IMG/VR virus record: IMGVR_UViG_3300008120_000879
Location: 1-24,884 of that record
Source: a virus
DNA: 24,884 bases
Strand: one strand, 5' to 3'
Part shown: one piece after another, positions 4,420-18,570 of the stretch
How the letters are laid out: each line of letters starts with the position of its first letter
Position numbering within the stretch: the first letter of the stretch is position 1
Program-made: the position numbers and the translations under genes
The notes under the pieces: model-generated
What the model saw: only the letters and a program-made list of their open reading frames with translations
The model's database searches: none
Told to the model about the DNA's origin: nothing

Positions 4420-4914
4420 TTATTTGTGGGATAATCCTGTGTTTTCTAAGACACCTAGGTTTTTAAAAAATCTTTCTGAATCAAACCTTTGATTATCCTT
4501 AGAAAAAATTCTACCAATTTGTAAGGCTAGTTCCTCATATATTCTTACATCTAGATGATTTTTTATATTTTTTAGTGCATCTGATACTTCAATGTATGTA
4601 GATCTCATAAAAACTGGATCTATTCCTGGTGGTCTTTTTATTATTTTTTCAGACACTCTCCCCGATGGCTCATATAAAGTTACTTTTAGAAAATTTTTTG
4701 CGAATCCCCAATCTACATATGAATCATACACTCTTACTGCATCTATTGCATTATCGTAAGATATTATAGATCTAGGAGGATTCTCCCCGTCCCTTGAAAT
4801 AGATATTATGTAATGTCCAACAGTTCTTTCTTGAACCCCTTTGACATATTCATTTAATATTCTTTCATTTTCTGGATTGAGTTGTCCCCATTCATCTCGT
4901 ATAGTATCATTCAT
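4420..4914 (-). CDS. Hypothetical protein, 164 aa, between the hydroxylase block and the giant adhesin
   Basis: I do not recognise this family. The protein is soluble and mixed alpha/beta. The middle contains a small beta-rich unit (GHYIISISRDG, RSIISYDNAIDAVRVYDSYV, residues 33-67) that looks like a short domain for an appended argument of repetitive 'I-S-x-D-x-A-x-x-x-x-x-Y' type, followed by 'FLKVTLYEPSGRVSEKIIKR' (75-94) and a helical C-terminus (SDALKNIKNHLDVRIYEELA). There are no cysteines, no signal peptide and no membrane helix. Its ATG overlaps the stop of the upstream hydroxylase by 1 nt (TAATG), so it is translationally coupled to that gene. Position between enzymes and adhesin permits a chaperone or accessory role, which is speculation. 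Confidence 0.7.
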   Translation of the reverse strand: MNDTIRDEWGQLNPENERILNEYVKGVQERTVGHYIISISRDGENPPRSIISYDNAIDAVRVYDSYVDWGFAKNFLKVTLYEPSGRVSEKIIKRPPGIDPVFMRSTYIEVSDALKNIKNHLDVRIYEELALQIGRIFSKDNQRFDSERFFKNLGVLENTGLSHK

Positions 4915-5600
4915 TAAATATCTTTTTTCTTATATGCCTGTACATGCTCTGGATTAAATGGGTCGTATCCATCTACAAATATAAACGCTGTAGAGATATA
5001 CTTGTACCCAGATTTTACTGGATGTGATTGATGTAGATATGGATGGGTGGAGGGAAATATCAGCGCTGACCCTGCCTTTGGCTTAATCCAAAAATCCAGA
5101 TTGGGATCATCTAAATTAGTACCTGGCCTACTCTTTCCCTCTCTATCGATCATAAAGGAAATCTCTCCACCTTCACAGTCTTCATTAAAATATAAGACTA
5201 TAGAATATAGAAGATTCATATCCCCATCTTGAGTGTCATGATGCACACCCAGACCACCTCCTGGCGGGTACTTACACATATCTAAAGATGGAGAAATATT
5301 TGGTTCAATATCTAGACCCCTATCTGTTACAAATTGCTTGGCTACTCTTTCTATTGCACTTCTCATATTTTCTATGATTTCTTTTTCCAGCAATCGGTTA
5401 TCTCCCGTAGAGGAATCTCTTTTGTCAAAAAAGAGATCCTTTCTTTCTCTATGGCAGGAGTCCTGCTTCCACATTGAAATAGATTGATGAACTTTCTCAT
5501 CTTCGTTTATTCTTTCTAGATCATCTATAACTTTCTGCGGGTCTTCAATTACATCAGTGTAATAGAAAATATTGTCATAATAAATTTTTTCTAAATTCAC
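4914..5600 (-). CDS. 2-oxoglutarate/Fe(II)-dependent hydroxylase, prolyl-4-hydroxylase-like, 228 aa
   Basis: P4Hc-type dioxygenase. It should couple oxidative decarboxylation of 2-oxoglutarate to hydroxylation of a substrate, in this family often a proline or lysine side chain. The facial triad is visible: H120-x-D122 (GVHHDTQDGD) and distal H190 (PYLHQSHPVKSG). K200 (SGYKY) is the expected 2-oxoglutarate anchor. The core strand 'LLYSIVLYFNEDCEGGEISF' and 'KPKAGSALIFPSTHPYLH' are typical. An insertion between these (residues 150-172) lengthens the fold. Starts with GTG directly after the TAA of the upstream hydroxylase (0-nt gap) without a clear SD. Last of three hydroxylases in tandem. Substrate unknown; tail proteins are the local candidates. 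It could instead modify host proteins or a small molecule. Confidence 0.88.
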   Translation of the reverse strand: MNLEKIYYDNIFYYTDVIEDPQKVIDDLERINEDEKVHQSISMWKQDSCHRERKDLFFDKRDSSTGDNRLLEKEIIENMRSAIERVAKQFVTDRGLDIEPNISPSLDMCKYPPGGGLGVHHDTQDGDMNLLYSIVLYFNEDCEGGEISFMIDREGKSRPGTNLDDPNLDFWIKPKAGSALIFPSTHPYLHQSHPVKSGYKYISTAFIFVDGYDPFNPEHVQAYKKKDI

Positions 5601-6341
5601 TTATCCCAACTCCTCTATTTTATATTTTTCACCGTTTTCAGAAATTTTATAGCCCTCTTCTAAAAGAGTTTGCCATTCTTTTTTCTGAACATTCTGCTTT
5701 TCTCTAATACTTTTCATCTCTTCTTGCCATTGTTTTTTTAGTTCCTCTGGGTATGCAACTTCATCCCTATCGTCCCAAAACGATCCTATGGTATATCTAG
5801 TACCACTTTTTATTAAGGTAACCTCATGGATATTTTTAAATCCTCCTGAAAAGCAGGCAAGCATTCCTTTCTTGGGATATATTTCTATATCCTTATTTGT
5901 AAACTTTAAAGTTCCACCAACAAAGTCGTCATTCAAATATAAGAATGCTGCGTATCTACTTCTTTCAAACGGGCTTGGATTTCCTTCAAGGTCGGTGTTG
6001 TCTGAGTGTGGTCTGGCGTATGCACCTGGCTCCCATTTTTGACTATGAAATCCAATCTTGAATATTGAACTTTTATCTAGTCCATGAATAGATGCTACAC
6101 ACTCAATAAATCTATCTTCAAGTTCTGAGAAGAAATTATTATTCAAACCAAATTCTTTTACCTCTTCATCAGTGTCTCTTGGAGTTACAGAAGAATATGA
6201 CTCATAAAAAGATATTGGCATCCATTCAAGTCTCCCGTTTTCTGTTTGCTTGTCTAGAATCTTTATTACCTTTTCGCACTCTTCTTCTGTAATAAAATCT
6301 TCAAATACAAGTATGTCCTCTGTGATCCTTTTTTCTATCAT
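5601..6341 (-). CDS. 2-oxoglutarate/Fe(II)-dependent hydroxylase, 246 aa, with charged C-terminal tail
   Basis: P4Hc-fold dioxygenase. Counting from the chosen start, the iron ligands are H112-x-D114 (ARPHSDNTD) and H172 (KNIHEVTLIKSG), with R182 (SGTRY) binding the 2-oxoglutarate carboxylate. The intervening 'YAAFLYLNDDFVGGTLKF' is the usual central strand pair. Past the core there is an unusual extension of about 60 residues rich in Lys/Glu/Gln (KKQWQEEMKSIREKQNVQKK), probably helical and absent from its neighbours. The frame is open further upstream to 6377, but ATG 6341 is preferred: it has a strong SD (AAGGAGG, 5-6 nt upstream), gives the 4-nt ATGA overlap with the preceding gene, and the protein then begins with the expected 'DILVFEDFITEEEC' strand. 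Substrate unknown. Confidence 0.88.
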   Translation of the reverse strand: MIEKRITEDILVFEDFITEEECEKVIKILDKQTENGRLEWMPISFYESYSSVTPRDTDEEVKEFGLNNNFFSELEDRFIECVASIHGLDKSSIFKIGFHSQKWEPGAYARPHSDNTDLEGNPSPFERSRYAAFLYLNDDFVGGTLKFTNKDIEIYPKKGMLACFSGGFKNIHEVTLIKSGTRYTIGSFWDDRDEVAYPEELKKQWQEEMKSIREKQNVQKKEWQTLLEEGYKISENGEKYKIEELG

Positions 6342-6988
6342 GGCTGCCTCCTTCCAGTATGTTTTTTTATTGTCCAAAAGAACGGTACGGTATACCTAAT
6401 TCCTGATTTTATTTCGCTAACTCCATGAATATAGTTCATGTCTCCTGGGAAGAAGTATGCTGACCCAGCCTTTGGCTTGAACTGAATTCCTTGATTGGGG
6501 AAGTATAACTCCCCGCCCTCATAATCATCATTGATATAGAAAAGCCCTGCAATGTCGTACCACGGGAAATCATTTGGTTTGCCTGCGTCTGGACCAGAAT
6601 GCAATTCTTTATCCGCGTGTGGCATTTGAAATTGACCAGGAAGCCATCTTACCATGGCAGGGCTAGTAGGAGCGGCATCTACTGAAAAATATGAATCTAC
6701 TTCAATCTTAAGCCTAGCGACCATACCTTCAATAATATCTATTATTGATGTGTCTATTTTAGATATATTAGGATAGGTAATAACTCTGTCATCCCAGTAA
6801 TTTGAGTCATATATTACTGTTCCATTTTCGTTATAGTGAGTTTCAGTCACATCCCAGACTGTATTGCCTCTGATAAAAGAATTTAACTTATACAACTCTT
6901 CTCCAGTTATAAAGTTATCTAAAGAAATAATGTTTTCTGGAGAATCGCCAAAAAATCCCGATGGGGTTATAGATTTTGGATGCATCAT
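6338..6988 (-). CDS. 2-oxoglutarate/Fe(II)-dependent hydroxylase, prolyl-4-hydroxylase-like, 216 aa
   Basis: Complete P4Hc-type dioxygenase. The iron-binding triad is H124-x-D126 (FQMPHADKE) and H188 (MNYIHGVSEIKSG), and R198 (SGIRY) is the co-substrate anchor. The core 'DIAGLFYINDDYEGGELYF' and 'KPKAGSAYFFPGDMNYIH' are textbook for the phage branch of the family. Residues 21-40 (ISLDNFITGEELYKLNSFIR) are the usual N-terminal 'fixation' strand and helix. ATG 6988 overlaps the upstream stop by 4 nt (ATGATG, two possible Met starts). It begins a run of three hydroxylases. Sequence divergence from its neighbours outside the active site suggests that they act on different substrates or sites. Confidence 0.9.
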   Translation of the reverse strand: MMHPKSITPSGFFGDSPENIISLDNFITGEELYKLNSFIRGNTVWDVTETHYNENGTVIYDSNYWDDRVITYPNISKIDTSIIDIIEGMVARLKIEVDSYFSVDAAPTSPAMVRWLPGQFQMPHADKELHSGPDAGKPNDFPWYDIAGLFYINDDYEGGELYFPNQGIQFKPKAGSAYFFPGDMNYIHGVSEIKSGIRYTVPFFWTIKKHTGRRQP

Positions 6989-7701
6989 AAGTACTTTCTT
7001 CTAGACCAAACTTTATTCAAATAAACGCCTCCGCTTGGAACGCGAAACTTTGCGCTATTTTCTACATTATTATTATACATCACTTGCTCGTCAGGATACT
7101 CATATTCCTTCTCCCAATCATCCCTCTTAAACGGAAGCAATTGTAAGTACGGAGTTCCTTGTGGAATAGTACCCTCCCATCCATCTCTAATAAAAAATGG
7201 AACCGTACCTGGAAGACTAACTTTATCGTTATCCACAATTCCTGTAGTATTTAAAAATGGTAGGTCGAATCTATTAAATGGCTGTGACCATAAAACACTA
7301 TAGCCGTCTGGAGTTTTAATTCCCCAGTCAGGCCACCACGCAAAATGTTCTTTTCTGTAACCCTCTGGCTGCATAAAGTCAGGCATTTCGCTACGCTTGT
7401 GGACAAAATCAGCGTATCGGGGATGTGTTTTAACATCCAGAACATTATTAGAATAATAAAAGGTTATGTCGCATGGAGTCTTTAATACATATCCAGTTCC
7501 AAGAATGTCGTATATGGCTGGGCAGGCCTTCCATGATGGAACCTTTCCTCCATCTGGACCAATCACCTCTTCACCTTCATGATTCTTCAAGTACCTACTA
7601 GAATTCATATACCAATCAGGGATACTTTTTACAGATGGAGAAGGGTTGGTTTTGGTGCTGTCATTTAGCCATGGCCTATTGGCGAGGAACTTAATCTTCA
7701 T
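6985..7701 (-). CDS. Cupin-like conserved phage protein, 238 aa (paralogue A of three)
   Basis: Function unknown. It shares a clear ordered motif set with two other proteins here (16043-16783 and 17818-18570): 'SIPDWYMN' near residue 27; 'KACPAIYDILGTGYVLKTP' at 58-76; 'TPDGYSVLWSQPFNRFDLPF' at 130-149; 'GTVPFFIRDGWEGTIPQGTP' at 165-184; 'LQLLPFKRDDWE'; and a basic end 'RRKYL'. The central 'P-x-G-(T)-P-x-x-Q-x-x-P-F-K-R' beta pattern suggests a cupin-like or DUF6065-like beta barrel, which is inference. I recall homologues in cyanophage genomes next to 2OG-Fe(II) oxygenases. Its ATG lies inside the end of the upstream gene (11-nt overlap), so the two are coupled. No signal peptide or membrane segment. 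Confidence 0.75.
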   Translation of the reverse strand: MKIKFLANRPWLNDSTKTNPSPSVKSIPDWYMNSSRYLKNHEGEEVIGPDGGKVPSWKACPAIYDILGTGYVLKTPCDITFYYSNNVLDVKTHPRYADFVHKRSEMPDFMQPEGYRKEHFAWWPDWGIKTPDGYSVLWSQPFNRFDLPFLNTTGIVDNDKVSLPGTVPFFIRDGWEGTIPQGTPYLQLLPFKRDDWEKEYEYPDEQVMYNNNVENSAKFRVPSGGVYLNKVWSRRKYL

Positions 7702-8401
7702 CTGTAACCTTGATTAATATTTTTTTAGCCTCATGCTCTCCATAAGGATTATTGTTATGATCGACTGCGTTTCTGTAAAAATGAGTCCATTCCCCCTTAG
7801 AATTCAATTCTTGGGAGATTTCTCCACGCCTTTTAATTCGCTCGGTCCATGAATTTTCAGACATAAAATTAGGCTGTCCAGAAATTATAGATACCTCTGT
7901 ATTGTTTAATTCTGAAAGAGAAATGGGAAGAATTGATGCAACTATAGTTCCAGCGGGTATTGTAATTATTTCTTTTGCCTTAGTCACCATAATTGCTATT
8001 GGTAATGATCCTATTAATGCTGATGTACTTATTATTGTGCTAATACACTGTATGCCATCTAAAAATATATTTGGAGGGGGCGTTGTCATAATAGAAATAT
8101 TTTCTTCTGGAGAAAAATATAGCCCCGTTTCAAAACTGATGCTTCTATTTCCTCTATTTGTATGGGCAAAGTTTCCGCCCTTGATAATTTCTATGTGATG
8201 GTTAGAAGAAGTATTGACTCCATCCCACCTGAAAGAAAGATCTTCTTTGAACGCAACTCCTAGTCCAGCCCTATTTGCTAGTGAAACGGGAAAGCATTGA
8301 TAGGCATGTCTATCAAACGTGGCGTCCATCCAGTCCCTATTCATTGGTAATTGATCTAAAATAGCGGGAGAGCCTACATCCTTATACACTTTTATTTTCA
8401 T
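7691..8401 (-). CDS. DUF6065-like protein, 236 aa
   Basis: The opening 'NRDWMDATFDRHAYQCFPVS' (residues 21-40) followed by 'LANRAGLGVAF..DLSFRWDG' matches my memory of the DUF6065 family (bacterial and phage proteins with 'DWMDATP.RFAYRCLPL.IAN..GW'). Later elements are 'GNFAHTNRGNRSISFETGLY', 'IMTTPPPNIFLDGIQCIST', and a hydrophobic beta-rich section 'LPIAIMVTKAKEIITIPAGT' then 'VASILPISL'. The IPAGT...LP step parallels the IP-x-GTP...PFKR step of the cupin-like paralogues, which suggests a shared fold (inference). Hydrophobic runs are beta strands, not obvious membrane helices. It overlaps the upstream hydroxylase by 1 nt (TAATG) and the downstream paralogue by 11 nt. Biochemical role unknown. 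The family name is less sure than the conserved motif. Confidence 0.7.
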   Translation of the reverse strand: MKIKVYKDVGSPAILDQLPMNRDWMDATFDRHAYQCFPVSLANRAGLGVAFKEDLSFRWDGVNTSSNHHIEIIKGGNFAHTNRGNRSISFETGLYFSPEENISIMTTPPPNIFLDGIQCISTIISTSALIGSLPIAIMVTKAKEIITIPAGTIVASILPISLSELNNTEVSIISGQPNFMSENSWTERIKRRGEISQELNSKGEWTHFYRNAVDHNNNPYGEHEAKKILIKVTDED

Positions 8402-9099
8402 TATGCTCCAGTTTCTTGATAAAACTCTGGACGATGATATTTATCTGAATAATCTAACATAGTAACTATAGAGTACTTTGTTCCTGACTTTACTGGCATA
8501 GCGGTATGAGGATACATAAAGTTTGATGGAAATACAAACAAGTCTCCTGCCTGCGGCTTTACAGTAAGTTTTTGAAGACTAAAACTTAATTCTCCACCCT
8601 CATAATTATCATTTGGATATCCTACAAGGGACACTACGCAGTTATAAGAGTATCCGTGATCGTGATGCTCCCTAAAATGCTGACCTGGACCGTACTTTAC
8701 AAAGTTCATAGCCTCCCAATATCTTAACTCTCCTATATTGAAATACTTACAATACGCTTGGGCTGCTGGGAAGGCTCTTTTATAAACTGAGTCCCATAGT
8801 TTTTTTAGAACAGTACCTGACAAAGAGTTATCGTTTTCAATATCGCTTCTTTTATATTTAAAATCAAAGCAGTCCCTGTAGTCGGGGACTTTCATGCCAT
8901 ATCCAACCATTGCTTCCATAAAATCATATTGATTAGATTTGTCTTGAATAACATCTTCAAGCATATCTATAGATTTAGTAGGAATAGCATCTCTAAATAC
9001 GAAAATACCTGGCCCAAGTTCTTCTACTGATGACCAAGTTTGTTCTTCTACAGTATAGAAGTTTTCTATTTTTTTTGCTATATCTTCAATGCTATTCAC
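8401..9099 (-). CDS. 2-oxoglutarate/Fe(II)-dependent hydroxylase, prolyl-4-hydroxylase-like, 232 aa
   Basis: P4Hc-type enzyme with H145-x-D147 (FREHHDHGYS), distal H198 (FMYPHTAMPVKSG) and K208 (SGTKY). Central strands are 'CVVSLVGYPNDNYEGGELSF' and 'KPQAGDLFVFPSNFMYPH'. It is most similar in the window to the next gene upstream (9099-9827): both have 'E-x-x-N-F-V-K-Y-x-x-x-x-H-H/F' before the HxD and 'DY' after the last core strand. A recent or ancient tandem duplication is therefore likely. The start is GTG, overlapping the TAG stop of the upstream gene by 1 nt (TAGTG), with no strong SD, so translation is probably coupled. These two hydroxylases lie directly downstream of the Pro-Phe repeat protein. 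Confidence 0.9.
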   Translation of the reverse strand: MNSIEDIAKKIENFYTVEEQTWSSVEELGPGIFVFRDAIPTKSIDMLEDVIQDKSNQYDFMEAMVGYGMKVPDYRDCFDFKYKRSDIENDNSLSGTVLKKLWDSVYKRAFPAAQAYCKYFNIGELRYWEAMNFVKYGPGQHFREHHDHGYSYNCVVSLVGYPNDNYEGGELSFSLQKLTVKPQAGDLFVFPSNFMYPHTAMPVKSGTKYSIVTMLDYSDKYHRPEFYQETGA

Positions 9100-9827
9100 T
9101 AATATACCAATCTTTGATCTTGTTCTCTGTAAGGATAATATCGTAGATTTCCACGGGAGTTATAATCAGTCATCACTACTACTGAGTATTTTGTTCCAGA
9201 TATCATTGGCTTAGAGGCATGTTCATATATAAATGTTGATGGAAACATTACAACGTCCCCCTGATTTGGCTTAATTGTTAAATCAAATCTTGGAAAGTAA
9301 AGTTCTCCACCCTCATAGTTATCATTTAAATATGCAACAATTGAAACTGTAGTAACATATGCTGGACCATGATCAGCATGAATATTAAAATGGTGCCCAG
9401 GACTTTCATATTTAACAAAGTTAAATACTTCAAAATAGTTCACTCCTACGCCCCAATATGCTCCATAATCTTGTGAGCATTGGTATATACTTCTAAATAC
9501 TGACTCATGCATATCATAAAAGATAGAATTGCTTTCATCTCTATCTCCCAGATTATTTTGACCAATCTTAAAGTCTAGGCAATACCTCGCCTCTAATAGA
9601 GGTTCATTTGACTCTGTTACAATGGCTGGCTGCCAGTTGTATTTCGTTGATGGCCCTAGATTTTTTTCTAAAGTATCTATTGAATACTCGCATGTATCTT
9701 TTGGGATAGCCCTATTATATATATTAATTCCCAGGGCTGGATTGGTTACTGAAACATTCCCAATAAATTTTTCTGGCATTCTGTGGGCATCAGTTTCTTC
9801 CCGATTTTTATTAAGCCAATCGTTCAT
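9099..9827 (-). CDS. 2-oxoglutarate/Fe(II)-dependent hydroxylase, prolyl-4-hydroxylase-like, 242 aa
   Basis: P4Hc-type enzyme: H150-x-D152 (HHFNIHADHGPA), distal H203 (FIYEHASKPMISG) and K213 (SGTKY) are all present, so it should be active. The core reads 'VSIVAYLNDNYEGGELYF' and 'KPNQGDVVMFPSTFIYEH'. A 'NYFEVFNFVKYESPG' segment before the HxD matches its downstream neighbour. It is the first enzyme of cassette II and starts 17 nt after the stop of the FN3/Pro-Phe/Hint-like protein, with a weak purine-rich SD (AGAAGAAAGAA). That adjacency makes the Pro-rich linker a natural candidate substrate, which is inference only. Confidence 0.9.
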   Translation of the reverse strand: MNDWLNKNREETDAHRMPEKFIGNVSVTNPALGINIYNRAIPKDTCEYSIDTLEKNLGPSTKYNWQPAIVTESNEPLLEARYCLDFKIGQNNLGDRDESNSIFYDMHESVFRSIYQCSQDYGAYWGVGVNYFEVFNFVKYESPGHHFNIHADHGPAYVTTVSIVAYLNDNYEGGELYFPRFDLTIKPNQGDVVMFPSTFIYEHASKPMISGTKYSVVVMTDYNSRGNLRYYPYREQDQRLVY

Positions 9828-9844
9828 AAGTTTCTTTCTTCTAA

Positions 9845-10741
9845 TTATTCAAAGTAGCCGATGGTGCCTTGCACGACATAGAAATTATTTGGACTACTCA
9901 TTATATTGTACATTATTGAAGAAACCTCTTCAAGTTCTATGTTATTAATTTCTATAAACTCTGATTTTTCATAATTAAACAACTTATATGTTGTATCTAT
10001 TTCAGTAGGCTTTTTAAATGAAACTATTCCTTCATTTTCCACTAAGATATTTAGATTATCAGGGTACACTTCACCATCTATATACACAAAGTTCTGAGTT
10101 TCGGAATAGGAAGAAATACTACTTATTTCAGTGTTTACCTGATCTCCAATGCTTACACTATTAGTTCCTAGCCCATCTATATTTACTGAAACTAGAGAAT
10201 CGCTTTCAGTCAAATACTTAGCCTCTAAATATCCATAGTCAGATGTAAGAATCATTACTTTAGAATCATCTCTTAACTGATTGGATGGTGCAGTTTTAGA
10301 CGGAGGGAAACTTGGGAAGAACGGTGGAAAGAATGGGAAGAACGGAGGGAAGAATGGGAAAAATGGCGGGAAGAATGGAAAGAATGGAGGAAAGAATGGA
10401 AAGAATGGGAAGAACGGTGGAAAGAACGGTGGTGGTGCTGATGTTGTAGCACTTGCCGTACCAGATCTAAGTCCTCCTGCTCCAATAGCAGTAACTGTTA
10501 CAGTATATGCAGTGCTTCCCGTAAGACCAGTAACATTAACTGTAGCCCCGCTAAAAGAAACAGTTCCTCCTGCTGGGGAGGTGCTTCCTATATATTGCCA
10601 CCTTGCATCATAATTACTAATATTAAATGTTAAAGTATTAAATGTCGTGGCTGTATTAGAAAAGACAGGAATGGGTGGAGCCATTGGTTTATGAATTCCT
10701 GGAATTCTACCATGTCCAGAAAATTTTGAAACAAACGCCAT
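9845..10741 (-). CDS. Fibre-associated protein, 298 aa: FN3-like domain, Pro-Phe repeat linker, degenerate Hint-like C-terminus
   Basis: Three parts are visible. Residues about 25-100 form an FN3/Ig-like beta sandwich (FNTLTFNISNYDARWQYIG ... GLTGSTAYTVTVTAIGAGG). Residues 103-147 are a low-complexity linker made only of Pro and Phe apart from one Ser, mostly PPFFPFF units. Residues 157-298 resemble the Hint (hedgehog/intein) fold: 'KVMILTSDYGYLEAKYLTES' fits 'G-T-x-V-L-M-x-D-G-x-x-x-x-x-x-D-L', and 'YIDGEVYPDNLNILVENEG' with 'YNIMSSPNNFYVVQGTIGY' fits the blocks ahead of the splice junction. However, the catalytic N-terminal Cys/Ser and the terminal His-Asn are absent (it ends GYFE), so self-cleavage is unlikely. 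It overlaps the upstream 200-aa gene by 1 nt (TAATG). Confidence 0.75.
   Translation of the reverse strand: MAFVSKFSGHGRIPGIHKPMAPPIPVFSNTATTFNTLTFNISNYDARWQYIGSTSPAGGTVSFSGATVNVTGLTGSTAYTVTVTAIGAGGLRSGTASATTSAPPPFFPPFFPFFPFFPPFFPFFPPFFPFFPPFFPFFPPFFPSFPPSKTAPSNQLRDDSKVMILTSDYGYLEAKYLTESDSLVSVNIDGLGTNSVSIGDQVNTEISSISSYSETQNFVYIDGEVYPDNLNILVENEGIVSFKKPTEIDTTYKLFNYEKSEFIEINNIELEEVSSIMYNIMSSPNNFYVVQGTIGYFE
10301..10435 (-). repeat. In-frame tandem repeat encoding the PPFF/PFF linker
   Basis: About 135 bases made of purine-rich units on the plus strand of the kind GGGAAGAACGG(A/T)GG(A)AAGAATGG, repeated with small variations in length and synonymous bases. On the coding strand they give runs of CCx and TTC/TTT codons, i.e. 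Pro and Phe. Unit length varies in steps that keep frame, consistent with slippage or unequal exchange changing linker length. The extreme strand purine/pyrimidine asymmetry could also favour triplex formation. Confidence 0.85.
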
Positions 10742-11343
10742 TATGCAAACCTTGCTAAACTTCCAAGTACTATGAAGGTATTATTTGCTGTCTTTAATAT
10801 TGTAAATGTATAAATATCTGTACTATTAGCATTACCCGCTGCTGGGGCAAGGGCGTCTGCCCATCTTGGAGTTACAGAAATTCCGTCTATCTGAAATGCT
10901 GTAGCGCGATATGGTGTAGCCCCATTGCTTAAAAGTATTGTTACCGTAGCGGCCTGACCAATTAATAGATAAGAGTTTAAAGATACAGTAGAACTTGCGC
11001 GAAAGTTAAACGTCCAATTAGCCGCTGTAGTTGTTGTAAAATTATGTATACCAGAATTTGCAAAATCTATATTTAGAGTTCCAGTAGGGGTTGTAGTATT
11101 TGTTGTAAAATTTTCTATGACTTCATTTGTTACCAATGAAGATCCTGCCACAACATTACCAGTAAAAGTTGGAGATTCTAGAGAGGCCTTAGTTGCTAAA
11201 CCACTATTGAATGTTGCCAACAATGTATCATAGTTTTCCTCAACTGTATCGGCTAGACTATCTAAAGTCTGATTGATAAGAGTCGTAGTTGTAGTAATAT
11301 TACGAATATCAACATCGTCTAATCTAATTCTATTAATAGGCAT
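10741..11343 (-). CDS. FQIDG-PRW-type phage structural protein, 200 aa (paralogue of 20325-20870)
   Basis: The N-terminal 45 residues are coiled-coil-like (NQTLDSLADTVEENYDTLLA). The C-terminal domain, from about 80, has 'TTAANWTFNFRASSTVSLNS', 'QAATVTILLSNGATPYRATA', 'FQIDGISVTPRWADALAPAA', 'DIYTFTILKT' and a terminal 'LGSLARFA'. The same ordered motifs occur in the 181-aa protein of the first fibre cluster, and I recall close relatives in T4-like cyanophage structural gene clusters. 'SPTFTGNV' near residue 57 is half of a fibre-repeat motif. Good SD (AGAAGGGG) about 6 nt before ATG. The stop overlaps the next start (TAATG). Probably a small fibre or a head/tail decoration; its exact location in the virion is unknown. 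Confidence 0.75.
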   Translation of the reverse strand: MPINRIRLDDVDIRNITTTTTLINQTLDSLADTVEENYDTLLATFNSGLATKASLESPTFTGNVVAGSSLVTNEVIENFTTNTTTPTGTLNIDFANSGIHNFTTTTAANWTFNFRASSTVSLNSYLLIGQAATVTILLSNGATPYRATAFQIDGISVTPRWADALAPAAGNANSTDIYTFTILKTANNTFIVLGSLARFA

Positions 11344-11358
11344 TGAGTATCCCCTTCT

Positions 11359-13320
11359 TTATGCCTGAGCCTCTGTCCAAGAAATTCTTGCAGCAATATT
11401 AGATGCAGTGGATGCTGAAAGATTTCTTGCTGTGATCAATAGTACGTCTGGTCCTACTGGGAAACCAGGATTCAATGTTCCCGCCTGTCCATCTCCACTA
11501 AGAATAGATGTTCCTAGATCTCTAGCCCTTGACAAATCGAAGGAGGTGGCGGAGAAGTTAGCGCCTCCACCGTTTTCTGCGTAGAATGCAAAGGCCCTAT
11601 CTCCTCCAGTAAATGCACCTGTCGCAGTAGCGGCAATGGCATTGTAGGTAGCAGTGCCATCAAAGTATACGACCTGAGCCAAGGAGCCTGATCCAACAGA
11701 CACAGTATCCCAGTTTGTTGGGAATGTAAGGCCTCCTCCAGTAATTGTTTGTGGATTAAGAATTCCTTCAATAAGGAATAGTCCCTGTGAAGAAACCTCC
11801 ATGCTGTTGAGGGTCAACTGCATACGGTTTACAATTTCTCTAATACCAAAGTTCTTTCCTATTCCAGAATCCGCTGATGGAGCAATTCTGATGGCTAGTA
11901 GTGGTCTTTGTGCGCCTGCTGCAACGCTCATGTACCTATTCATACCAGCGGTGAAGATAATAGACTTATCATCGTCATATCTACCGTCCATGATAACTGA
12001 GACACCCCAATGGCTTACTACTGGGGCACAGTCACTATAAACATATTGAACAGACACTTGACCATTTGATCCTGCGCCAGACAATGATGCGTCAGGGGTA
12101 AATGTTACGTTAGAAGCCGTTCCACCTAACTGATATGCCGTTGATGCGAATGATCCAGAAGGATTAACTCCAGCATATGTCCATGTAGTTCTTCTTGTTA
12201 GTCCTGATATTGGGTATCCTCTAGCACTAGAATTGTATTCACCAATGCTTGTATACCTAATCATTTCACAATTTACATTGTCTTTTACTAAAATCCAGCC
12301 ACTTGAGGGCCAGTTGACAGCATCTTCAACATAAAGTGTTCCATCTGATGAACCAAGGGCGCTACCTCTAGCAATTGATGCTCCTGCCACTAATCTAGTA
12401 GTTGGACCATAGTTGATTGCTTCAAATCTTCCTGGTAGGTTTCCAGAACGCATATATGCAGAAGTATTCACATTGTTATTTGGCATCTTGTGGCAATAAA
12501 TAACATCTCCATTAGGTCCACGGAAGCCAAATCTAATATGTCCTGCGCCATACCATGTGTAATCAATATAGGCCATCTGCATCTTAGAGAAGTCCATATT
12601 GTATCCTGATGGACCATTTCCATCCATAGTGTCCATATTCCATGCAGACTGAGGAATTCTAAATGTTTGTGTCTTTAGGTATCTACAATTGCTTCTAGTT
12701 GCACCGCGATAAGCGGGGGCTATGGTTAAAGATGTATCTGAAGCAATGTTTGTAACTAAATAACTTTGACCCTTAATTACAATGTATTCTCCGACAACAA
12801 CCTGATCTAAAAATCTTGTGTTGGTTCCAGTAACAGTACTTGACGCATTTGTAACAGATACTCTTCCAAATAGTTCCTTAACGGAGTCTCTTCTACATGC
12901 ATAAATAGTCTGACCATCGTATTCAAAAAAGAATCCATTCTGATCATCATATAGTCCTGCTCTTACTGAAGAGCCCTTCCAGTTTACAGCGGTAACGAAT
13001 ATATTTGTTCCACCTGGGGTTGTGTCTGTTGGAATTGATGCAGTTGTGTAGGTAAAAGACTTTGATCCAGTAATACCACTAACAGTTGCAGTGATATTAT
13101 ACTTGTCACTATCTGCATTACCAGCAGAAGATACTACACCTTCAATTTTAATTGATGTTCCAACTTGAAGATTGTGGTCTTGAATTGTATTTACAGTAAC
13201 GGTATTACCGCTAGCAGAAATAGTATCAATATCGAACGTTGGAGTAAATTTCACACCAGTTGAATATTGAACACCCTTGCCAGATTGGTATCTAAAGTAT
13301 CTTCTTGTTTGTCTAATCAT
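11359..13320 (-). CDS. Large cyanophage-type structural protein, C-terminal part (653 aa from the first ATG); reading frame really continues upstream
   Basis: Virion structural (tail/adhesin) protein. 'MIRQTRRYFRYQSGKGVQYS' is a hallmark that in T4-like cyanophage proteins sits in the interior of a protein of more than 900 residues. It is followed by an Ig-like unit (TVNTIQDHNLQVGTSIKIEG ... KSFTYTT, 45-110), a beta-rich section (GQTIYACRRDSVKELFGRVS), 'RFGFRGPNGDVIYCHKMPNN' (about 265), 'DGRYDDDKSIIFTAGMNRYM' (about 450) and a C-terminal beta domain. The ATG at 13320 has no SD. The same frame is open upstream to 13455, and directly before the ATG it encodes 'SDGGVLITTGGPSNGSQ', which fits homologues. 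I therefore think this and 13353-14216 are one gene interrupted by a -1 frameshift near 13371. Confidence 0.85.
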   Translation of the reverse strand: MIRQTRRYFRYQSGKGVQYSTGVKFTPTFDIDTISASGNTVTVNTIQDHNLQVGTSIKIEGVVSSAGNADSDKYNITATVSGITGSKSFTYTTASIPTDTTPGGTNIFVTAVNWKGSSVRAGLYDDQNGFFFEYDGQTIYACRRDSVKELFGRVSVTNASSTVTGTNTRFLDQVVVGEYIVIKGQSYLVTNIASDTSLTIAPAYRGATRSNCRYLKTQTFRIPQSAWNMDTMDGNGPSGYNMDFSKMQMAYIDYTWYGAGHIRFGFRGPNGDVIYCHKMPNNNVNTSAYMRSGNLPGRFEAINYGPTTRLVAGASIARGSALGSSDGTLYVEDAVNWPSSGWILVKDNVNCEMIRYTSIGEYNSSARGYPISGLTRRTTWTYAGVNPSGSFASTAYQLGGTASNVTFTPDASLSGAGSNGQVSVQYVYSDCAPVVSHWGVSVIMDGRYDDDKSIIFTAGMNRYMSVAAGAQRPLLAIRIAPSADSGIGKNFGIREIVNRMQLTLNSMEVSSQGLFLIEGILNPQTITGGGLTFPTNWDTVSVGSGSLAQVVYFDGTATYNAIAATATGAFTGGDRAFAFYAENGGGANFSATSFDLSRARDLGTSILSGDGQAGTLNPGFPVGPDVLLITARNLSASTASNIAARISWTEAQA

Positions 13321-13352
13321 TTGCGAACCATTTGACGGCCCACCCGTAGTAA

Positions 13353-13455
13353 TCAGAACACCTCCATCGGAACTAGTCCATGCGCTGATGCAGTAGTTAC
13401 TGTAATAACTGTTCCAGCATATGTCATTGCTGAAGCAGATACTGCTAATGGAATT
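13353..13455 (-). other. Frameshift junction joining the two parts of the large structural gene
   Basis: The upstream frame (start 14216) ends at TGA 13353-13355 after 'TVTTASAHGLVPMEVF'. The downstream frame is open from the TAG at 13456-13458 and reads through 'SDGGVLITTGGPSNGSQM' into the YFRYQSGKG protein. The sense probably switches by -1 at about 13371-13373, where GTT CCG would become GTT TCC with one extra T. I see no canonical X-XXY-YYZ slippery heptamer in the overlap. Confidence 0.7.
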
Positions 13456-14216
13456 CTAGCACCGTCAAAGATTCCTCCTCCATAAACCGTGGTATATGTA
13501 GAGTCTTGTACTGATCCATTGACTACTCCAAATGCTGTGTATGTAAACGTAGTTGTTGATCCAACTGTATCTACTAAGAATGTTCCGTCAGTAAATGCAC
13601 TCGTTGAATCTTGAACAACTACAACATCTCCAACCGATAGTCCATGTACTGTATTAGTTGTTACTGTAATTGTAGACCTTGGGCTTTGATTTCCTCCTAC
13701 TATTGATGCTACGTCAAACGTGGTTGCACCAGTAGTACGAGAATAGAATGATGGATAATTTGCACTTAGGCTAAGACTCTCCCACTTAGATGGCTGTGGG
13801 GAGTACTCAAAATCTGTATCGATTAATGACTGTGGAGTTGAAACTCTAAATTTATCAACAGGATCTCTATATACCTCATCTGGTCTAAAAGTTTCTGATG
13901 GCTCATCTACAAGAATCTGCAATTTGTCTGTTGAAGACATACCAGCAGTATTGTAGTTAAGGACAATAGTGGTGGTTCCAGTAGAAGCAGAGTATACAAG
14001 GGTACTTCTATCTAATGTAGCGCCCTGCCGTGTATTTGTTGATACTGCTGAATATGATGTAGCAGTAAGTGCAGGATCAGAGAAGTTATAAATAACTTGG
14101 TTTCTGCTAACATTTGTGATAAGAGTAAGGTGTTCCTGTCTGATATAACGATTTACGACAATCGTTTTTGTAGATGGAGTAAATGTGTAATCCTCTACAA
14201 CTATTCTTCTAGCCAT
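13353..14216 (-). CDS. Large cyanophage-type structural protein, N-terminal part (287 aa before the frameshift)
   Basis: N-terminal portion of the protein that continues at 11359-13320. 'MARRIVVEDYTFTPSTKTIV', 'LTLITNVSRNQVIYNFSDPA' (30-49), 'SSTDKLQILVDEPSETFRPD' and especially 'VSTPQSLIDTDFEYSPQPSKWE' (about 124-145; quoted in part) match my memory of the large T4-like cyanophage structural protein. After this come Ig-like repeats 'ITVTTNTVHGLSVGDVVVVQ' (185-204) with 'TTFTYTAFG', then a second copy that breaks off after 'ITVTTASAHGLV'. The repeat is cut short exactly where the frameshift falls, so the last five residues (PMEVF) are probably out-of-frame translation. SD GGAG lies 8 nt before ATG 14216, and the gene follows the fibre gene with a 3-nt gap. 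Confidence 0.8.
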   Translation of the reverse strand: MARRIVVEDYTFTPSTKTIVVNRYIRQEHLTLITNVSRNQVIYNFSDPALTATSYSAVSTNTRQGATLDRSTLVYSASTGTTTIVLNYNTAGMSSTDKLQILVDEPSETFRPDEVYRDPVDKFRVSTPQSLIDTDFEYSPQPSKWESLSLSANYPSFYSRTTGATTFDVASIVGGNQSPRSTITVTTNTVHGLSVGDVVVVQDSTSAFTDGTFLVDTVGSTTTFTYTAFGVVNGSVQDSTYTTVYGGGIFDGARIPLAVSASAMTYAGTVITVTTASAHGLVPMEVF

Positions 14217-14219
14217 TAA

Positions 14220-15413
14220 TTAATCTCCTAAGTATATGTCTATTGCCTTGAATGGATAGATAGGTGGTCTTGCCTGTAAATCCACTCCCGGAAACAATCG
14301 TGCTTCAAAGTAAGATCCTGGTTCTGGTGGCTCTGGTAATACTATATATCCATCATCATCTATAAAGTACCCAAATGAAGCCAATCCAGATAGCCAGGTC
14401 GTGCTTGGCTTTTCTGCAACTATCTGAATTATACCATTGATATTCAATAAAAGCCTAAGTGGATGATCTATTTCTAATGGAGTTCCTAAATATGTTGGTT
14501 GGAATCTCGTAGTCCTTCCATCGAAGGTAAATGTATCAATTTGTGTTATTTCTAGTGCTTGTTGGACGAACTGTGTAGTTGCAACTTGAGTTGTATTAGT
14601 TCCTTGTGTGGCAGTGGGAGCGGTTGGTGTTCCTGTAAATGCTGGAGAATTTATATTAGCCTTAGAAGAAAGATCTAATGTTCCCCAGGATGCAGTAGTA
14701 CCATCAGTAGTAAGATACTTTCCAGAATTCCCCGTCTGTGATGGAAGCCCTTCTACAGAAGAGGTTGTTACTCCTGTAATCAAACCCTTGGAGTTTACGG
14801 TAATTACTGGAATGGCAGTAGATGATCCATATGTATTTGCAGAAACTCCAGAATTAGCAAGTGTTAGTGAGATAGATGTTGTGCCAGATCCAGAAGCGTC
14901 ACCTGAAATAGTTATAGATTGGTTACCTGTTAAGTAGGTATTTGTATCTAATGTCCAGGCGTCTGTTCCAGTTCTTTTTAAGAATCCCGTCCCAGTAAGC
15001 CCAGAAATAGCAGTAAGGTCTGCATCAAGTGGTTGCTTTTGGGAAAGTGAAGTTGCTATGGTAGATGCAAAATTTGCATCATCTCCTAGTGCTGCGGCTA
15101 ATTCGTCTAAGGTGTCTAATGCTCCAGGGGCGCTATTGATAAGATTACTTATTGCAGTGCTGACAAAGGATGTTGTTGCAATCTGAGTAGTATTAGTTCC
15201 AGCGCTTGCTGTAGGAGCCGCAGGGATTCCAGTAAATGTTGGAGAGTTTAGGTCTGCCTTTGCGGAAATATCTATAGTATTCCATGAGACTACCGCACCA
15301 TCTGTACCTAGGAACTTTCCAGCGTTACCAGTTTGTGATGGATATGGGTTTATGGTGGCGGGAGATAGAACGACCCATTGGCTACCGTCCCAAACTCTTG
15401 CTATTTTTGCCAT
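14220..15413 (-). CDS. Phage tail fibre protein with Phage_fiber_2-type repeats, 397 aa
   Basis: Starts 'MAKIARVWDGSQWVVL', a common fibre N-terminus that likely docks to the tail. Two fibre-repeat units follow: 'SPTFTGIPAAPTASAGTNTT' (57-76, then QIATTSFV) and 'SPAFTGTPTAPTATQGTNTT' (256-275, then QVATTQFV). A 'LDTLDELAAALGDDANFAST' repeat lies at 99-118, and two 'PSQTGN-(A/S)-GK-(F/Y)-L-x-T-D-G' modules at 25 and 224. The C-terminus (FDGRTTRFQPTYLG ... GYIVLPEPPEPGS) is a separate globular tip. An alternative TTG start at 15431 adds six residues (MGYNYT), but ATG 15413 gives the familiar N-terminus and has TATAAT 6 nt upstream. The frame ends three bases before the next gene. The role is probably trimeric receptor-binding side fibre. 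Confidence 0.87.
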   Translation of the reverse strand: MAKIARVWDGSQWVVLSPATINPYPSQTGNAGKFLGTDGAVVSWNTIDISAKADLNSPTFTGIPAAPTASAGTNTTQIATTSFVSTAISNLINSAPGALDTLDELAAALGDDANFASTIATSLSQKQPLDADLTAISGLTGTGFLKRTGTDAWTLDTNTYLTGNQSITISGDASGSGTTSISLTLANSGVSANTYGSSTAIPVITVNSKGLITGVTTSSVEGLPSQTGNSGKYLTTDGTTASWGTLDLSSKANINSPAFTGTPTAPTATQGTNTTQVATTQFVQQALEITQIDTFTFDGRTTRFQPTYLGTPLEIDHPLRLLLNINGIIQIVAEKPSTTWLSGLASFGYFIDDDGYIVLPEPPEPGSYFEARLFPGVDLQARPPIYPFKAIDIYLGD

Positions 15414-15419
15414 AGTATA

Positions 15420-15425
15420 ATTATA
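15420..15425 (-). promoter_or_regulatory. Candidate -10 box (TATAAT) for leaderless transcription of fibre cluster 2
   Basis: Minus strand reads TATAAT-TATACT-ATG: consensus hexamer, 6-nt spacer, then the fibre start at 15413. No SD is present near that ATG. The box sits in the 39-nt gap following the 193-aa hydroxylase gene. No convincing -35 is visible. Third instance in the window of the same box-to-start spacing. Confidence 0.5.
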
Positions 15426-15452
15426 ACCCAAAAACCCCTGTTTTATAAATGA

Positions 15453-16034
15453 CTATCTTCCACATGAACATCCAGATCCGTGACCCAACAAATCCTTAGG
15501 TTGCTCACTCATCCAGGTGACAATTATATACTTTATCCCCTTTGATACTGGCTCTGCTGCGTGTAAATACGGATAATTAGAAGGGAAAAGCACTAAAGCA
15601 GGACTATCTGGGTTTATAGTGTAATTAAAGTGCTTAAATGTCGTGCCGCCGCCATCATATTCTCCAGGATTTAGATAAATAAGTGCAGAAACATCCCTAG
15701 ATAATCCTGGTCCATGGTCGGTATGAAAATCATACTTGTCATAAGACTCATACTTTAGTAAACTAAGACCCTCATCCTTACTAACAGAAATATCATAATA
15801 ATTATTATATTTCTTTACACAATCATACATTATAGGTCTAATTTTTTCCTTGGATATTTCAAGCATATCTAGGTCAAATCCTGTACTAGATCTAATATGT
15901 TTAACTAGGTCTCCGCCGCCGACCATTGAATCTGACCATGACAACTTTGACTTATTTACAGACTTAATAGTTTGTTTTGCTATAGATTCTGGAAACTCAA
16001 ATTGAACTGCTCCAGGGAATATTTCAATAGCCAT
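15453..16034 (-). CDS. 2-oxoglutarate/Fe(II)-dependent hydroxylase, compact, 193 aa, Cys-containing C-terminus
   Basis: Shortest of the six dioxygenases. The triad H104-x-D106 (YDFHTDHGPG) and H158 (YPYLHAAEPVSKG) and the anchor K168 (KGIKY) are present. The core is 'VSALIYLNPGEYDGGGTTF' with 'NPDSPALVLFPSNYPYLH'; it has GGG-T where relatives have EGGEL. The N-terminal strand-helix is reduced, so the enzyme is close to the minimal fold. It ends 'GHGSGCSCGR', with two cysteines and a histidine that the other hydroxylases lack. A metal or disulfide role is possible but unproven. It follows the cupin-like paralogue B by 8 nt with SD GGAG and precedes a tail-fibre gene. Likely role: hydroxylation of a protein side chain, perhaps in a fibre. 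Confidence 0.88.
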   Translation of the reverse strand: MAIEIFPGAVQFEFPESIAKQTIKSVNKSKLSWSDSMVGGGDLVKHIRSSTGFDLDMLEISKEKIRPIMYDCVKKYNNYYDISVSKDEGLSLLKYESYDKYDFHTDHGPGLSRDVSALIYLNPGEYDGGGTTFKHFNYTINPDSPALVLFPSNYPYLHAAEPVSKGIKYIIVTWMSEQPKDLLGHGSGCSCGR

Positions 16035-16042
16035 AATGTCTC

Positions 16043-16783
16043 CTATAAATATTTCTTCTTTACTCTATACTTCTTTTTATATTCTCCGCCTGATACCTTG
16101 CCCTTATCATCATATCTAGTGGCATGAAACTCTGACTGTGCTAAAGAAATTTGTTGCCTATCTAAGTTAGTGGGTTCTGGTACAGAGAGTTCCCAATCAT
16201 CTCTTTTAAAAGGAATTATTTGAACAATGGGCGTGTTAGCCGGAATGGTTCCCTCAAAATTCTTAGCCATCAAAAAGGGGAACTGGACTGCTATTGGATG
16301 CTTATCTGTATCAACAACTCCAGTAAGAGTTAGAAATGGGGAAATTTGATTAAATGGATGGGTAAAAATACAACTGTACCCTGGTGGAGTTTTAATAACA
16401 TATGGATTACTAAATTTATATGCATATTCATTGTACACGCTACCAACATCTAATCCCCTCAACTGCTCCCATGGATGCATTGTAATTGGCTTTATGCCGC
16501 CGTCAACTAATTTAGCGGGGCATTGGCAGGAATGATTTCCTTCTTTATCTACACTCCATACTGATTCATATTTAGTTACTAAATAATACCCAGTAGTAAA
16601 AGCGTCAAGGATGGGTATACATTTTTTAGCAGTGAAGTCGGGCTGCTCATCTGGATTATTTCTATTATAGAGCCTTCTTACAGAAGGCAAGTTTTTATAC
16701 CACTTCGGTATTTCTTTATAGGCTGGCACAGGGTATAGGCAGCCGCCTCCGTATTTTTCTAGATCTAAAAACTCAATCTTCAT
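16043..16783 (-). CDS. Cupin-like conserved phage protein, 246 aa (paralogue B)
   Basis: Same family as 6985-7701 and 17818-18570. Ordered motifs: 'EIPKWYKNLP' (23-32), 'KKCIPILDAFTTGYYLVTKY' (53-72), 'TPPGYSCIFTHPFNQISPFL' (about 132-151), 'LTGVVDTDKHPIAVQFPFLM', 'FEGTIPANTPIVQIIPFKRD' and a strongly basic end 'KKYRVKKKYL'. The region between the first two blocks and the third is variable and contains 'SCQCPAKLVDGG'. No function is known to me; a beta-barrel small-molecule or protein-modifying role is inferred from company. ATG 16783 lies inside the end of the glycosyltransferase gene (11-nt overlap), the same arrangement and spacing as paralogue A with its upstream gene. Confidence 0.75.
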   Translation of the reverse strand: MKIEFLDLEKYGGGCLYPVPAYKEIPKWYKNLPSVRRLYNRNNPDEQPDFTAKKCIPILDAFTTGYYLVTKYESVWSVDKEGNHSCQCPAKLVDGGIKPITMHPWEQLRGLDVGSVYNEYAYKFSNPYVIKTPPGYSCIFTHPFNQISPFLTLTGVVDTDKHPIAVQFPFLMAKNFEGTIPANTPIVQIIPFKRDDWELSVPEPTNLDRQQISLAQSEFHATRYDDKGKVSGGEYKKKYRVKKKYL

Positions 16784-17825
16784 TTTCTCTCCGTGGTATG
16801 TAAAATGTATCTACAGATTCAAATTCTGGATATGATAATCCTGCGTAATCACAATATTCTTTAACTTTTAATTGATTATTAGGATTTTGTAAATATCTAT
16901 CCGTTCTTTCTATAGATTCTCTATACGAATTTATGCTTGGTTCTGGATTTTGTCTAGATTCTTCAGTATAAAAATCATTATACCAATCCATATATAGATG
17001 TGCTAGTGGTAATTCAAAATGCGGGAAAATCATATTATATCCACGGGACAGGGCTTCGATTGAACCAATAAACTCTTCCTCAAAAAATAGGTAGTGCCAT
17101 GGATATATATATTTATAATCATCGTATAGCCTATGGTCTGAAAAAATAAAATTTGCATTTATTTTTCTAGAATATACATATCCTTCGGGCAATAAATTAT
17201 CTACAATATTAGATTTTTTTATCACATATGGCAATCCTTTAGTGGTTAAATTATCTACTGATCTTACGGTAACCCACCTTGGTATATGTGGATACATGGG
17301 ATTTCTTATCAAATCTTCTGGATACAGACCTTGTTCAGTTCCTGTATTGTTTATGGAAGTCCAGCAGGGATACCTTGGCATATTTTCATCAGGTGAATTA
17401 CGAACATTATCTTTTAATAGTTCATATCCTGGAAGATAGGCAGTTAGCATATGCTTATCTCCAGCAAGGTCCTTAGGAACTGACTTATACATCTCCAAAA
17501 CTTTGCTGTCCCATGATTTAGCAAAATTTGTATGCCCGTCTATTTGAAGAATATAGTCCTGTCCAGAGTACATAGACATGGCATTTATTCTTCCGTAGCC
17601 AACGCCCTCGCTACGATAAAAATTAATAAATTTTTGTGAGATATTTTTACCAGTTATTTTCTTTTTAATTTCATCAATTCTTTTTTTATATTTAAAAGGA
17701 ACTGAATGGCAAATACCCATATATATATCATCAGGATTGTCTGCCTCATCAAATGCCTTTTCTGCAACATGAAAAATCTCTTGATCTTCCACAGAAGGAA
17801 CTGATATAAAAATACTATTAGTCAT
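16773..17825 (-). CDS. GlcNAc transferase of the Skp1/Gnt1-like glycosyltransferase family (PF11397-like), 350 aa
   Basis: The N-terminus 'SIFISVPSVEDQEIFHVAEK' followed by 'AFDEADNPDDIYMGICHSV' is the opening Rossmann strand and helix of the Gnt1-like family, whose Dictyostelium member adds GlcNAc to hydroxyproline of Skp1. 'GVGYGRINAMSMYSGQDYIL' (74-93) and 'QIDGHTNFAKSWD' (94-106) correspond to the family's acceptor-side block and metal-binding D-x-H/D motif (usually DSH, here D96-G-H98). Later 'FIFSDHRLYDDYKYIYPWHY' and 'FFEEEFIGSIEALSRGYNMI' (about 247-266) match the second catalytic block. Soluble, with no transmembrane anchor, so it acts in the host cytoplasm. It overlaps both neighbours (8 and 11 nt) and so is part of the enzyme cassette. 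Donor and acceptor are predicted, not shown. Confidence 0.8.
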   Translation of the reverse strand: MTNSIFISVPSVEDQEIFHVAEKAFDEADNPDDIYMGICHSVPFKYKKRIDEIKKKITGKNISQKFINFYRSEGVGYGRINAMSMYSGQDYILQIDGHTNFAKSWDSKVLEMYKSVPKDLAGDKHMLTAYLPGYELLKDNVRNSPDENMPRYPCWTSINNTGTEQGLYPEDLIRNPMYPHIPRWVTVRSVDNLTTKGLPYVIKKSNIVDNLLPEGYVYSRKINANFIFSDHRLYDDYKYIYPWHYLFFEEEFIGSIEALSRGYNMIFPHFELPLAHLYMDWYNDFYTEESRQNPEPSINSYRESIERTDRYLQNPNNQLKVKEYCDYAGLSYPEFESVDTFYIPRRENED

Positions 17826-18570
17826 ATTTTTTCTTGACCCAAATATTGTCCCTGTACCATCCCATTGGGACAGATCTAACCTTATCTGCTAGATAATTCT
17901 GTCTTTTAACACTAAATGTACTAATGGAGGAAATCCATGAACTTCTCTTAATTGGAATTATTTGAGCAATAGGTGTTCCCGATGGAATAATACCTTCAAA
18001 ATTTTTCTTAAAAAAGAAAGGTATGTTTCCGCCCGTCCACCACTCATCGGCATCCATAATTCCAGATGTTGTAATAAATGGTAAATCAAATCTATTAAAT
18101 GGATGTGTTATTAATGCACTCCAGCCTTTAGGTAATCTGGCCCCCCATTGTCCACTAAATGCCATATGATCAGAACAATATCCCTCTGGTCTTGGAATTG
18201 TGTGACCGATATCTCCATCTCTTCGTCTTAACATCTCTGGTCCATGAAAGTTAGTTTTTTCATGCTTATCTGTATATGGATTTATAGATACTGCATACAT
18301 CTCTTCTAGAGATTCAGATGTTTTTACATAATAATCTTGCCATGAACAAATAAGGTATCCAGAAATCATTGCATCTAGAAATGGCATACACGATTTAAGT
18401 CCACCAGATACATCTCTATCATTTACTCCTGCAACTTTTCCAGTTTTTTCAGAAATAGCAATTTCTGCGTCTTTATACCACCTAGGAATAAATTCTTTAG
18501 ATGGAATAGGGGCAGGAATATTTTTTAAAGCGTATGGATCTCCTGGCACAAATTTTATCTTTTTAGGCAT
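17818..18570 (-). CDS. Cupin-like conserved phage protein, 250 aa (paralogue C)
   Basis: Third member of the family. Motifs in order: 'EFIPRWYKDAE' (25-35), 'KSCMPFLDAMISGYLICSWQ' (58-77), 'LPKGWSALITHPFNRFDLPF' (about 142-161), 'ITTSGIMDADEWWTGGNIPF', 'FFKKNFEGIIPSGTPIAQII' and 'PIKRSSW', ending 'WVKKKYD'. It is longer between the first two blocks (EKTGKVAGVNDRDVSGG) and has a His-containing stretch 'CSDHMAFSGQWG'. I recall this type from cyanophages. Catalytic residues cannot be named. The conserved HPFN and GTP-x-x-Q pattern is where a binding site would be sought. Overlaps the upstream 68-aa gene by 8 nt and the glycosyltransferase start by 8 nt. Confidence 0.75.
   Translation of the reverse strand: MPKKIKFVPGDPYALKNIPAPIPSKEFIPRWYKDAEIAISEKTGKVAGVNDRDVSGGLKSCMPFLDAMISGYLICSWQDYYVKTSESLEEMYAVSINPYTDKHEKTNFHGPEMLRRRDGDIGHTIPRPEGYCSDHMAFSGQWGARLPKGWSALITHPFNRFDLPFITTSGIMDADEWWTGGNIPFFFKKNFEGIIPSGTPIAQIIPIKRSSWISSISTFSVKRQNYLADKVRSVPMGWYRDNIWVKKKYD

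Follow-up and report, generated by a model that had tools for sequence, protein, structure and literature searches.

P4H-like (prolyl 4-hydroxylase-like) genes are common in aquatic phages, and six of them lie on a fragment of 24,884 nt (24.9 kb) from the uncultured-virus record IMGVR_UViG_3300008120_000879 (hereafter the window, meaning the whole of this stretch). An initial annotation had proposed that the phage hydroxylates and then glycosylates its own adhesins in one coupled pathway. The comparisons presented here point to two adhesin-maturation modules, in one of which the prolines of a Pro-Phe repeat adhesin would be hydroxylated by the adjoining P4H-type oxygenases, a reading to which we assign a probability of about 75%. 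Hydroxylases serving an adhesin thus retain strong support from synteny, whereas the coupling of hydroxylation to glycosylation does not, and it is concluded that two adhesin-specific modules had been merged into one pathway.

Nearly all genes of the window, including all members of the two modules and the two phrog_5906-type genes located below, lie on the minus strand and are transcribed towards lower coordinates. As had been described, tail-fibre genes separate two runs of short genes that overlap or abut, and the window encodes virion genes as well. The run at 20325-15453, the Cys-rich module, comprises a Cys-rich adhesin, three small proteins (one of them DUF6171), two phrog_7084/DUF6065-type proteins, a PF11397 glycosyltransferase and one oxygenase. 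The run at 10741-4420, the repeat module, begins with the Pro-Phe repeat adhesin; then come a pair of oxygenases, a pair of DUF6065-type proteins, a further three oxygenases and, last, one unknown protein. Both are longer than previously delimited, 4420-4914 joining the repeat module and 18563-20325 the Cys-rich module.

The repeat adhesin (9845-10741), the proposed substrate, has an FnIII-like N-terminal part, an (FFP/FFPP)n tract at 10298-10435 and a degenerate Hint-like C-terminal part (∼9845-10255). The tract is 46 residues long and almost exclusively Phe and Pro. The Pro-Phe repeat of the initial annotation is therefore present, and it recurs across viral loci, where the tracts consist nearly entirely of FFPP, FFP, YFP and YFPP units (48% Phe, 41% Pro, 3% Tyr). 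Pro is invariant in the unit, the first aromatic position is variable, and almost all units keep an aromatic pair, [FYH]F. In the window the adhesin gene is immediately preceded by that of a fibre protein with a phrog_5906-type C-terminal domain (10741-11343), and a phrog_5906-like fibre domain ends the preceding gene in 78 of 95 loci.

Linkage between repeat and oxygenases was investigated by querying viral contigs with DNA encoding only FFPPFFP[F/Y]FP, which identified at least 125 loci and at least 131 repeat genes. The comparison loci are fragmentary metagenome contigs, and two scans cover the best 80 loci each. Among the matches listed, 84 of the 93 repeat genes with at least 3 kb of downstream DNA had a same-strand oxygenase in the first 3 kb of it, and 82 of the 93 had a DUF6065-type gene there as well, while oxygenases were found on the upstream side of 2 of 54 repeat genes (downstream versus upstream, Fisher p ∼1e-27). 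When the first oxygenase was used as the sole query, the repeat was present upstream in 44 of the 52 loci with enough upstream DNA, and five of the eight repeat-less loci had a PHF or PSF repeat variant in its place (49 of 52 with variants). Repeat and cassette are thus neighbours whichever of the two serves as the query, as the initial annotation had anticipated for cassette and adhesin. Since many contigs are common to both scans, these are two directions of one linkage and not independent samples. Across ∼85,000 cellular genomes (257 billion bases) the repeat pattern was found in seven stretches, of which one, a phage-like 5 kb contig, contained the cassette; the candidate substrate is therefore a repeat nearly absent from cellular genomes. 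A tblastn search of a 50,697-record phage collection found no isolate with a repeat adhesin or DUF6065 proper, a search in which low-complexity filtering may mask the repeat.

The oxygenases of the repeat module follow the adhesin in the order ox-ox-DUF-DUF-ox-ox-ox, beginning with ox5 (9099-9827; clade A1; PF13640, 46.8 bits; P4H-type 2-oxoglutarate (2OG)-Fe(II), HAD...H...K) and ox4 (8401-9099; clade A2; 54.5 bits; HHD...H...K) and, after the DUF6065-type genes, continuing with ox3 (6338-6988; clade B1; 32.5 bits; HAD...H...R), ox2 (5601-6377; clade B2; 38.3 bits; HSD...H...R) and ox1 (4914-5600; clade B3/B4; 47 bits; HHD...H...K). With ox6 of the Cys-rich module, all six exceed the curated PF13640 cut-off of 27 (32.5-54.5 bits) and have an intact iron triad, HxD...H, and basic 2OG-binding residue (K/R at +10), in agreement with the initial annotation. 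All four catalytic residues are retained in 370 of 377 related oxygenases, the 2OG-binding residue being almost only Lys in clades A1 and A2 and only Arg in B1. Gene order across loci is mostly ox-ox-DUF6065-phrog7084-ox-ox-ox or ox-phrog7084-ox-DUF6065-ox-ox-ox-ox. In a tree of 175 oxygenases, grouping was largely by gene position (A1, A2, B1 and B2 groups and mixed B3/B4 groups), with the window oxygenases in the groups expected from their positions, so that by phylogeny the paralogues are largely positional orthologues. Synonymous change greatly exceeded non-synonymous change in comparisons of the window oxygenases with those of two related loci (L190 and L143), with synonymous sites near saturation. 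We regard the cassette as old, with each of its enzymes retained. Such a pattern is what would be expected if every paralogue had a separate job, as opposed to a dosage effect.

When a profile of the oxygenases was compared with solved structures, the best matches were prolyl 3-hydroxylase 1, Bacillus P4H and PHD2, with Chlamydomonas P4H and lysyl hydroxylase LH3 lower among the matches. This kinship to protein prolyl hydroxylases leads us to predict prolyl hydroxylation. Taken together, the two-way linkage, the positional orthology, the triad kept in 370 of 377 proteins and the prolyl-hydroxylase relatives make it very probable that the repeat adhesin is the substrate of the cassette.

The second module contains the transferase of the proposed coupled pathway. 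Its adhesin (19285-20325), rich in Cys, Asn and Pro, has a low-complexity insert within a conserved frame and lies immediately downstream of a phrog_5906 paralogue (20325-20870) of the gene at 10741-11343. It is followed by an unknown 97-aa protein, x97 (18992-19285), a DUF6171 zinc-ribbon-like protein (18766-19038; PF19668, 30.5 bits), an unknown 68-aa protein, x68 (18563-18769), the DUF6065-type protein duf1, a glycosyltransferase resembling Skp1 GlcNAc-transferase (16773-17825; PF11397 at 96.1 bits, cut-off 21; an IDGH motif close to residue 96), the DUF6065-type protein duf2, and ox6 (15453-16034; PF13640, 45.6 bits; HTD...H...K), which occupies the same place in L143 and L294-L299. The Gnt1-like transferase of the initial annotation is thus genuine. 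When the Cys-rich adhesin was used as query, 62 loci were found, of which 45 extended far enough downstream. Within 4 kb downstream, 42 of these 45 had a DUF6065-type gene, usually with homologues of 18992-19285 and 18766-19038, whereas the transferase was present in 22 and an oxygenase in 7. Gene order in L296-L299 is that of the window, and the near relatives L143, L294 and L295 have the same order minus the transferase. The PF11397 transferase is therefore part of the Cys-rich module and optional there. A query of viral contigs with the single transferase sequence gave no matches. In two loci (L107, 930-2129, and L179, 13013-13627) the DUF6171 zinc-ribbon protein and a PF11397-like transferase are apparently one fused gene, which adjoins an adhesin whose repeats are (PT)n and Pro-Phe.

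The single element common to both adhesin modules is the DUF6065-type family. The window encodes duf4 (7691-8401; PF19541, 85.3 bits; homologous to the phrog_7084 group) and duf3 (6985-7701; phrog_7084, E 7.5e-35) in the repeat module, and duf1 (17818-18570; phrog_7084, E 4.3e-38) and duf2 (16043-16783; PF19541, 36 bits, with a phrog_7084 match) in the Cys-rich module. The PF19541 cut-off is exceeded by duf4 and duf2, and duf3 and duf1 are linked to them through phrog_7084 and by profile comparison, which unites the PF19541 and phrog_7084 groups in one superfamily (98.4%). An AlphaFold2 (AF2) model of duf3 built with 101 homologues had a predicted local distance difference test score (pLDDT) of 96.4. 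In comparisons of this model with the PDB the best 50 matches in each were dUTPases, dCTP deaminases or their relatives, the beta-clip fold of these enzymes matching with Z 9.6 and a root-mean-square deviation of 3.6 over 121 residues (Foldseek probability 1.0); the nearest viral models were unnamed phage proteins, followed by dUTPases. None of the 101 DUF6065-type members matched a dUTPase Pfam family, and the profile reached 2.1% probability against E. coli Dut, though IDSD and GxxIAQ stretches align. By structure prediction, then, these proteins have a dUTPase-like (beta-clip) fold and stand outside the dUTPases by sequence, from which they also differ in being ∼90 residues longer, in motifs that are only partly alike and in their location beside adhesins. 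The initial annotation had called all four cupin-like or DUF6065-like; the family membership stands, and the cupin reading was dropped, there being no cupin among the matches listed in the PDB fold search. Since the family is common to both modules, it is inferred to handle the adhesin itself, as enzyme or chaperone. The DUF6065-type proteins probably bind or further modify the adhesin, which is the least certain part of this report.

Of the alternatives, the coupled pathway, in which a P4H makes a hydroxyproline in the fibre and a Gnt1-like transferase adds GlcNAc to it, has the Skp1 PhyA/Gnt1 pathway of Dictyostelium and Toxoplasma as its model, which is established in eukaryotes (PMC3515798). 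As there, a P4H-type oxygenase and a PF11397-type transferase are both encoded in the window, ox6 one gene after the transferase. In one other locus (L163) an adhesin with Thr-rich and PFF repeats is followed by an oxygenase and a PF11397-like transferase, and hydroxylation and glycosylation may be coupled in some phages of this kind. The eukaryotic pathway, however, acts on one residue of a cytosolic regulator, whereas the two enzyme types considered here lie mostly in separate modules: any PF11397 gene is present on 5 of 50 repeat-cassette contigs, transferase cassettes without an oxygenase are common, and the transferase-minus relatives described above keep the rest of the Cys-rich cassette. 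Skp1-type genetic coupling of transferase to P4H was accordingly not found, and successive action of the two enzymes on one hydroxyproline is improbable for the window. Also considered was the possibility that the oxygenases serve host surface components, lipids or small molecules and lie near fibre genes merely through late-gene clustering, as similar cyanophage oxygenases sit elsewhere, for example next to uvsX. The linkage is nevertheless directional and, from whichever side it is searched, particular to one repeat type, and clusters with DUF6065 genes only were not enriched beside low-complexity proteins (0 of 9, no general link), which makes this the least probable of the explanations. 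The collagen-like triplets that had been noted are present, as a short G-P-Q stretch at 23678-23998; this is ∼14 kb from the repeat module, with Pro in the X position of G-X-Y, and was rejected as an unlikely main substrate.

A further question is which residue would be modified. For a single type of residue, five or more conserved and distinct paralogues seem a large number, the [FYH]F pair is kept in nearly every repeat unit and the 2OG-binding residue differs between the A and B1 clades, all of which could be accounted for if aromatic or other repeat residues were targets instead of or besides proline (beta-hydroxy-Phe, Tyr or His). Set against the prolyl hydroxylases that are the best structural relatives of the oxygenases, and against a unit in which Pro is invariant and the first aromatic position is not, this is unlikely, though less so than either of the two explanations above. 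Several points also weigh against hydroxylation of repeat prolines itself. The loci share ancestry, the first oxygenases forming 53 clusters at 90%, 18 at 70% and 7 at 60% identity, and with such common descent there are fewer independent events than the Fisher value implies. A few repeat proteins are encoded on contigs without any PF13640 gene (G006, 38 kb, and G024, 53 kb), so that hydroxylation by phage enzymes would not be obligatory for such repeats. Lastly, a chlorovirus review that cites a characterised viral P4H (PBCV-1; Eriksson 1999) also cites a personal analysis in which PBCV-1 particles contained no hydroxyproline (PMC7019647).

If the repeat adhesin is the substrate, the cassette oxygenases would hydroxylate the newly made protein either ahead of tail assembly or in the course of it, acting on repeat prolines during infection, with each paralogue responsible for a different position or stereochemistry. 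With Phe making up half of it, the tract would be poorly soluble, and hydroxylation would raise its polarity; since Pro-rich rods tend to be extended, an extremely hydrophobic Phe/Pro rod could in this way become a soluble, competent receptor-binding tip. The succession of a phrog_5906-domain fibre gene and an adhesin gene resembles that of a fibre with a separate tip adhesin, a location at the virion tip that is likewise predicted here. The dUTPase-fold proteins, present with both adhesin types, would bind or further modify the adhesin, and the Cys-rich module would do the same kind of job on the Cys-rich adhesin, with the PF11397 transferase as an optional glycosylation step. We suggest, more tentatively and at somewhat less than even odds, a phage-specific system in which at least five oxygenases, each with a fixed position or chemistry in the [F/Y]F-P(P) repeat, and dUTPase-fold enzymes with a novel activity jointly produce a hyper-hydroxylated aromatic/proline rod that serves as the receptor-binding tip, sister modules glycosylating and perhaps sulfating or methylating other repeat adhesins.

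Extensins, the hydroxyproline-rich proteins of plant cell walls, are repetitive Pro/aromatic rods matured by P4Hs; they are unrelated in sequence to the repeat adhesin and use the eukaryotic secretory pathway. Among viral enzymes, PBCV-1 prolyl 4-hydroxylase is also of P4H type and is reported to be active on proline-containing peptides (PMC7019647). Unlike that single enzyme of a eukaryotic virus, those described here belong to phages and comprise at least five orthologous paralogues tied to a Phe/Pro adhesin and DUF6065 proteins. The 2OG-Fe(II) oxygenases of PHROG 61, according to passages of a recent study, are widespread in phages, have an EGLN3-like fold and are of the same family as those of the window; those passages propose no substrate (PMC12774648), whereas linkage names a candidate substrate gene here. 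One survey states that viral use of prolyl 4-hydroxylase "remains cryptic" (PMC9301287). No literature was found that links oxygenase genes to a phage adhesin repeat, contains the repeat string or describes hydroxylated phage adhesins, in a search that left subscription journals mostly outside. The linkage therefore offers a specific, testable substrate for these enzymes, and DUF6065 gains a predicted fold and a genomic context. The dedicated enzyme sets suggest that the proteins with which phages bind their hosts are remodelled post-translationally by the phages themselves, and if this is true, phage adhesin chemistry would depend on oxygen, iron and 2-oxoglutarate.

Further variation was seen among the repeat adhesins and their neighbours. 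In about one fifth the C-terminal part is a Hint/intein-like domain (Cys-xx-DT..., terminal HN; L059, L127, L154, L163, L048 and L052), which may serve in cleavage or attachment of the repeat. The N-terminal Cys and C-terminal HN are both absent from the C-terminus of the window adhesin and present in L059, L127 and L154. Long fibre proteins with the Pro-Phe repeat and no PF13640 gene on the contig were observed in L136 and L200 (38 and 53 kb). A histidine variant, PHFPPHFPP, precedes the A1 oxygenase in L220, L223, L224 and L225. Directly upstream of the A1 oxygenase in L231 and L257 are sulfotransferase-, Asp/Asn beta-hydroxylase- and methyltransferase-like genes; Pfam matching of these covers L231 only, where the methyltransferase match is weak. 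Adhesins with other repeats, (APVFSF)n and (TYYTAPV)n (L048, 3069-4412, and L052, 3075-4436), have DUF6065 and transferase genes behind them, and in L048 an oxygenase too, so that adhesins other than the Pro-Phe and Cys-rich types may also be paired with enzyme genes.

At the end of the repeat cassette, the unknown 164-aa protein (4420-4914) has homologues in or right after the cassette in ∼24 loci, and in ∼16 loci (for example L141, 2-1270) a class II ribonucleotide reductase lies behind the cassette. In the haloarchaeal viruses HRTV-22 and HF2 (L007 and L008) a DUF6065-like gene lies between ribonucleotide reductase and adhesin/virion genes. The portal protein of one cassette phage (L066, 10924-12549) shares ∼46% identity with its counterparts in Streptomyces phages, Daubenski and LukeCage among them, which hints at actinobacterial hosts.

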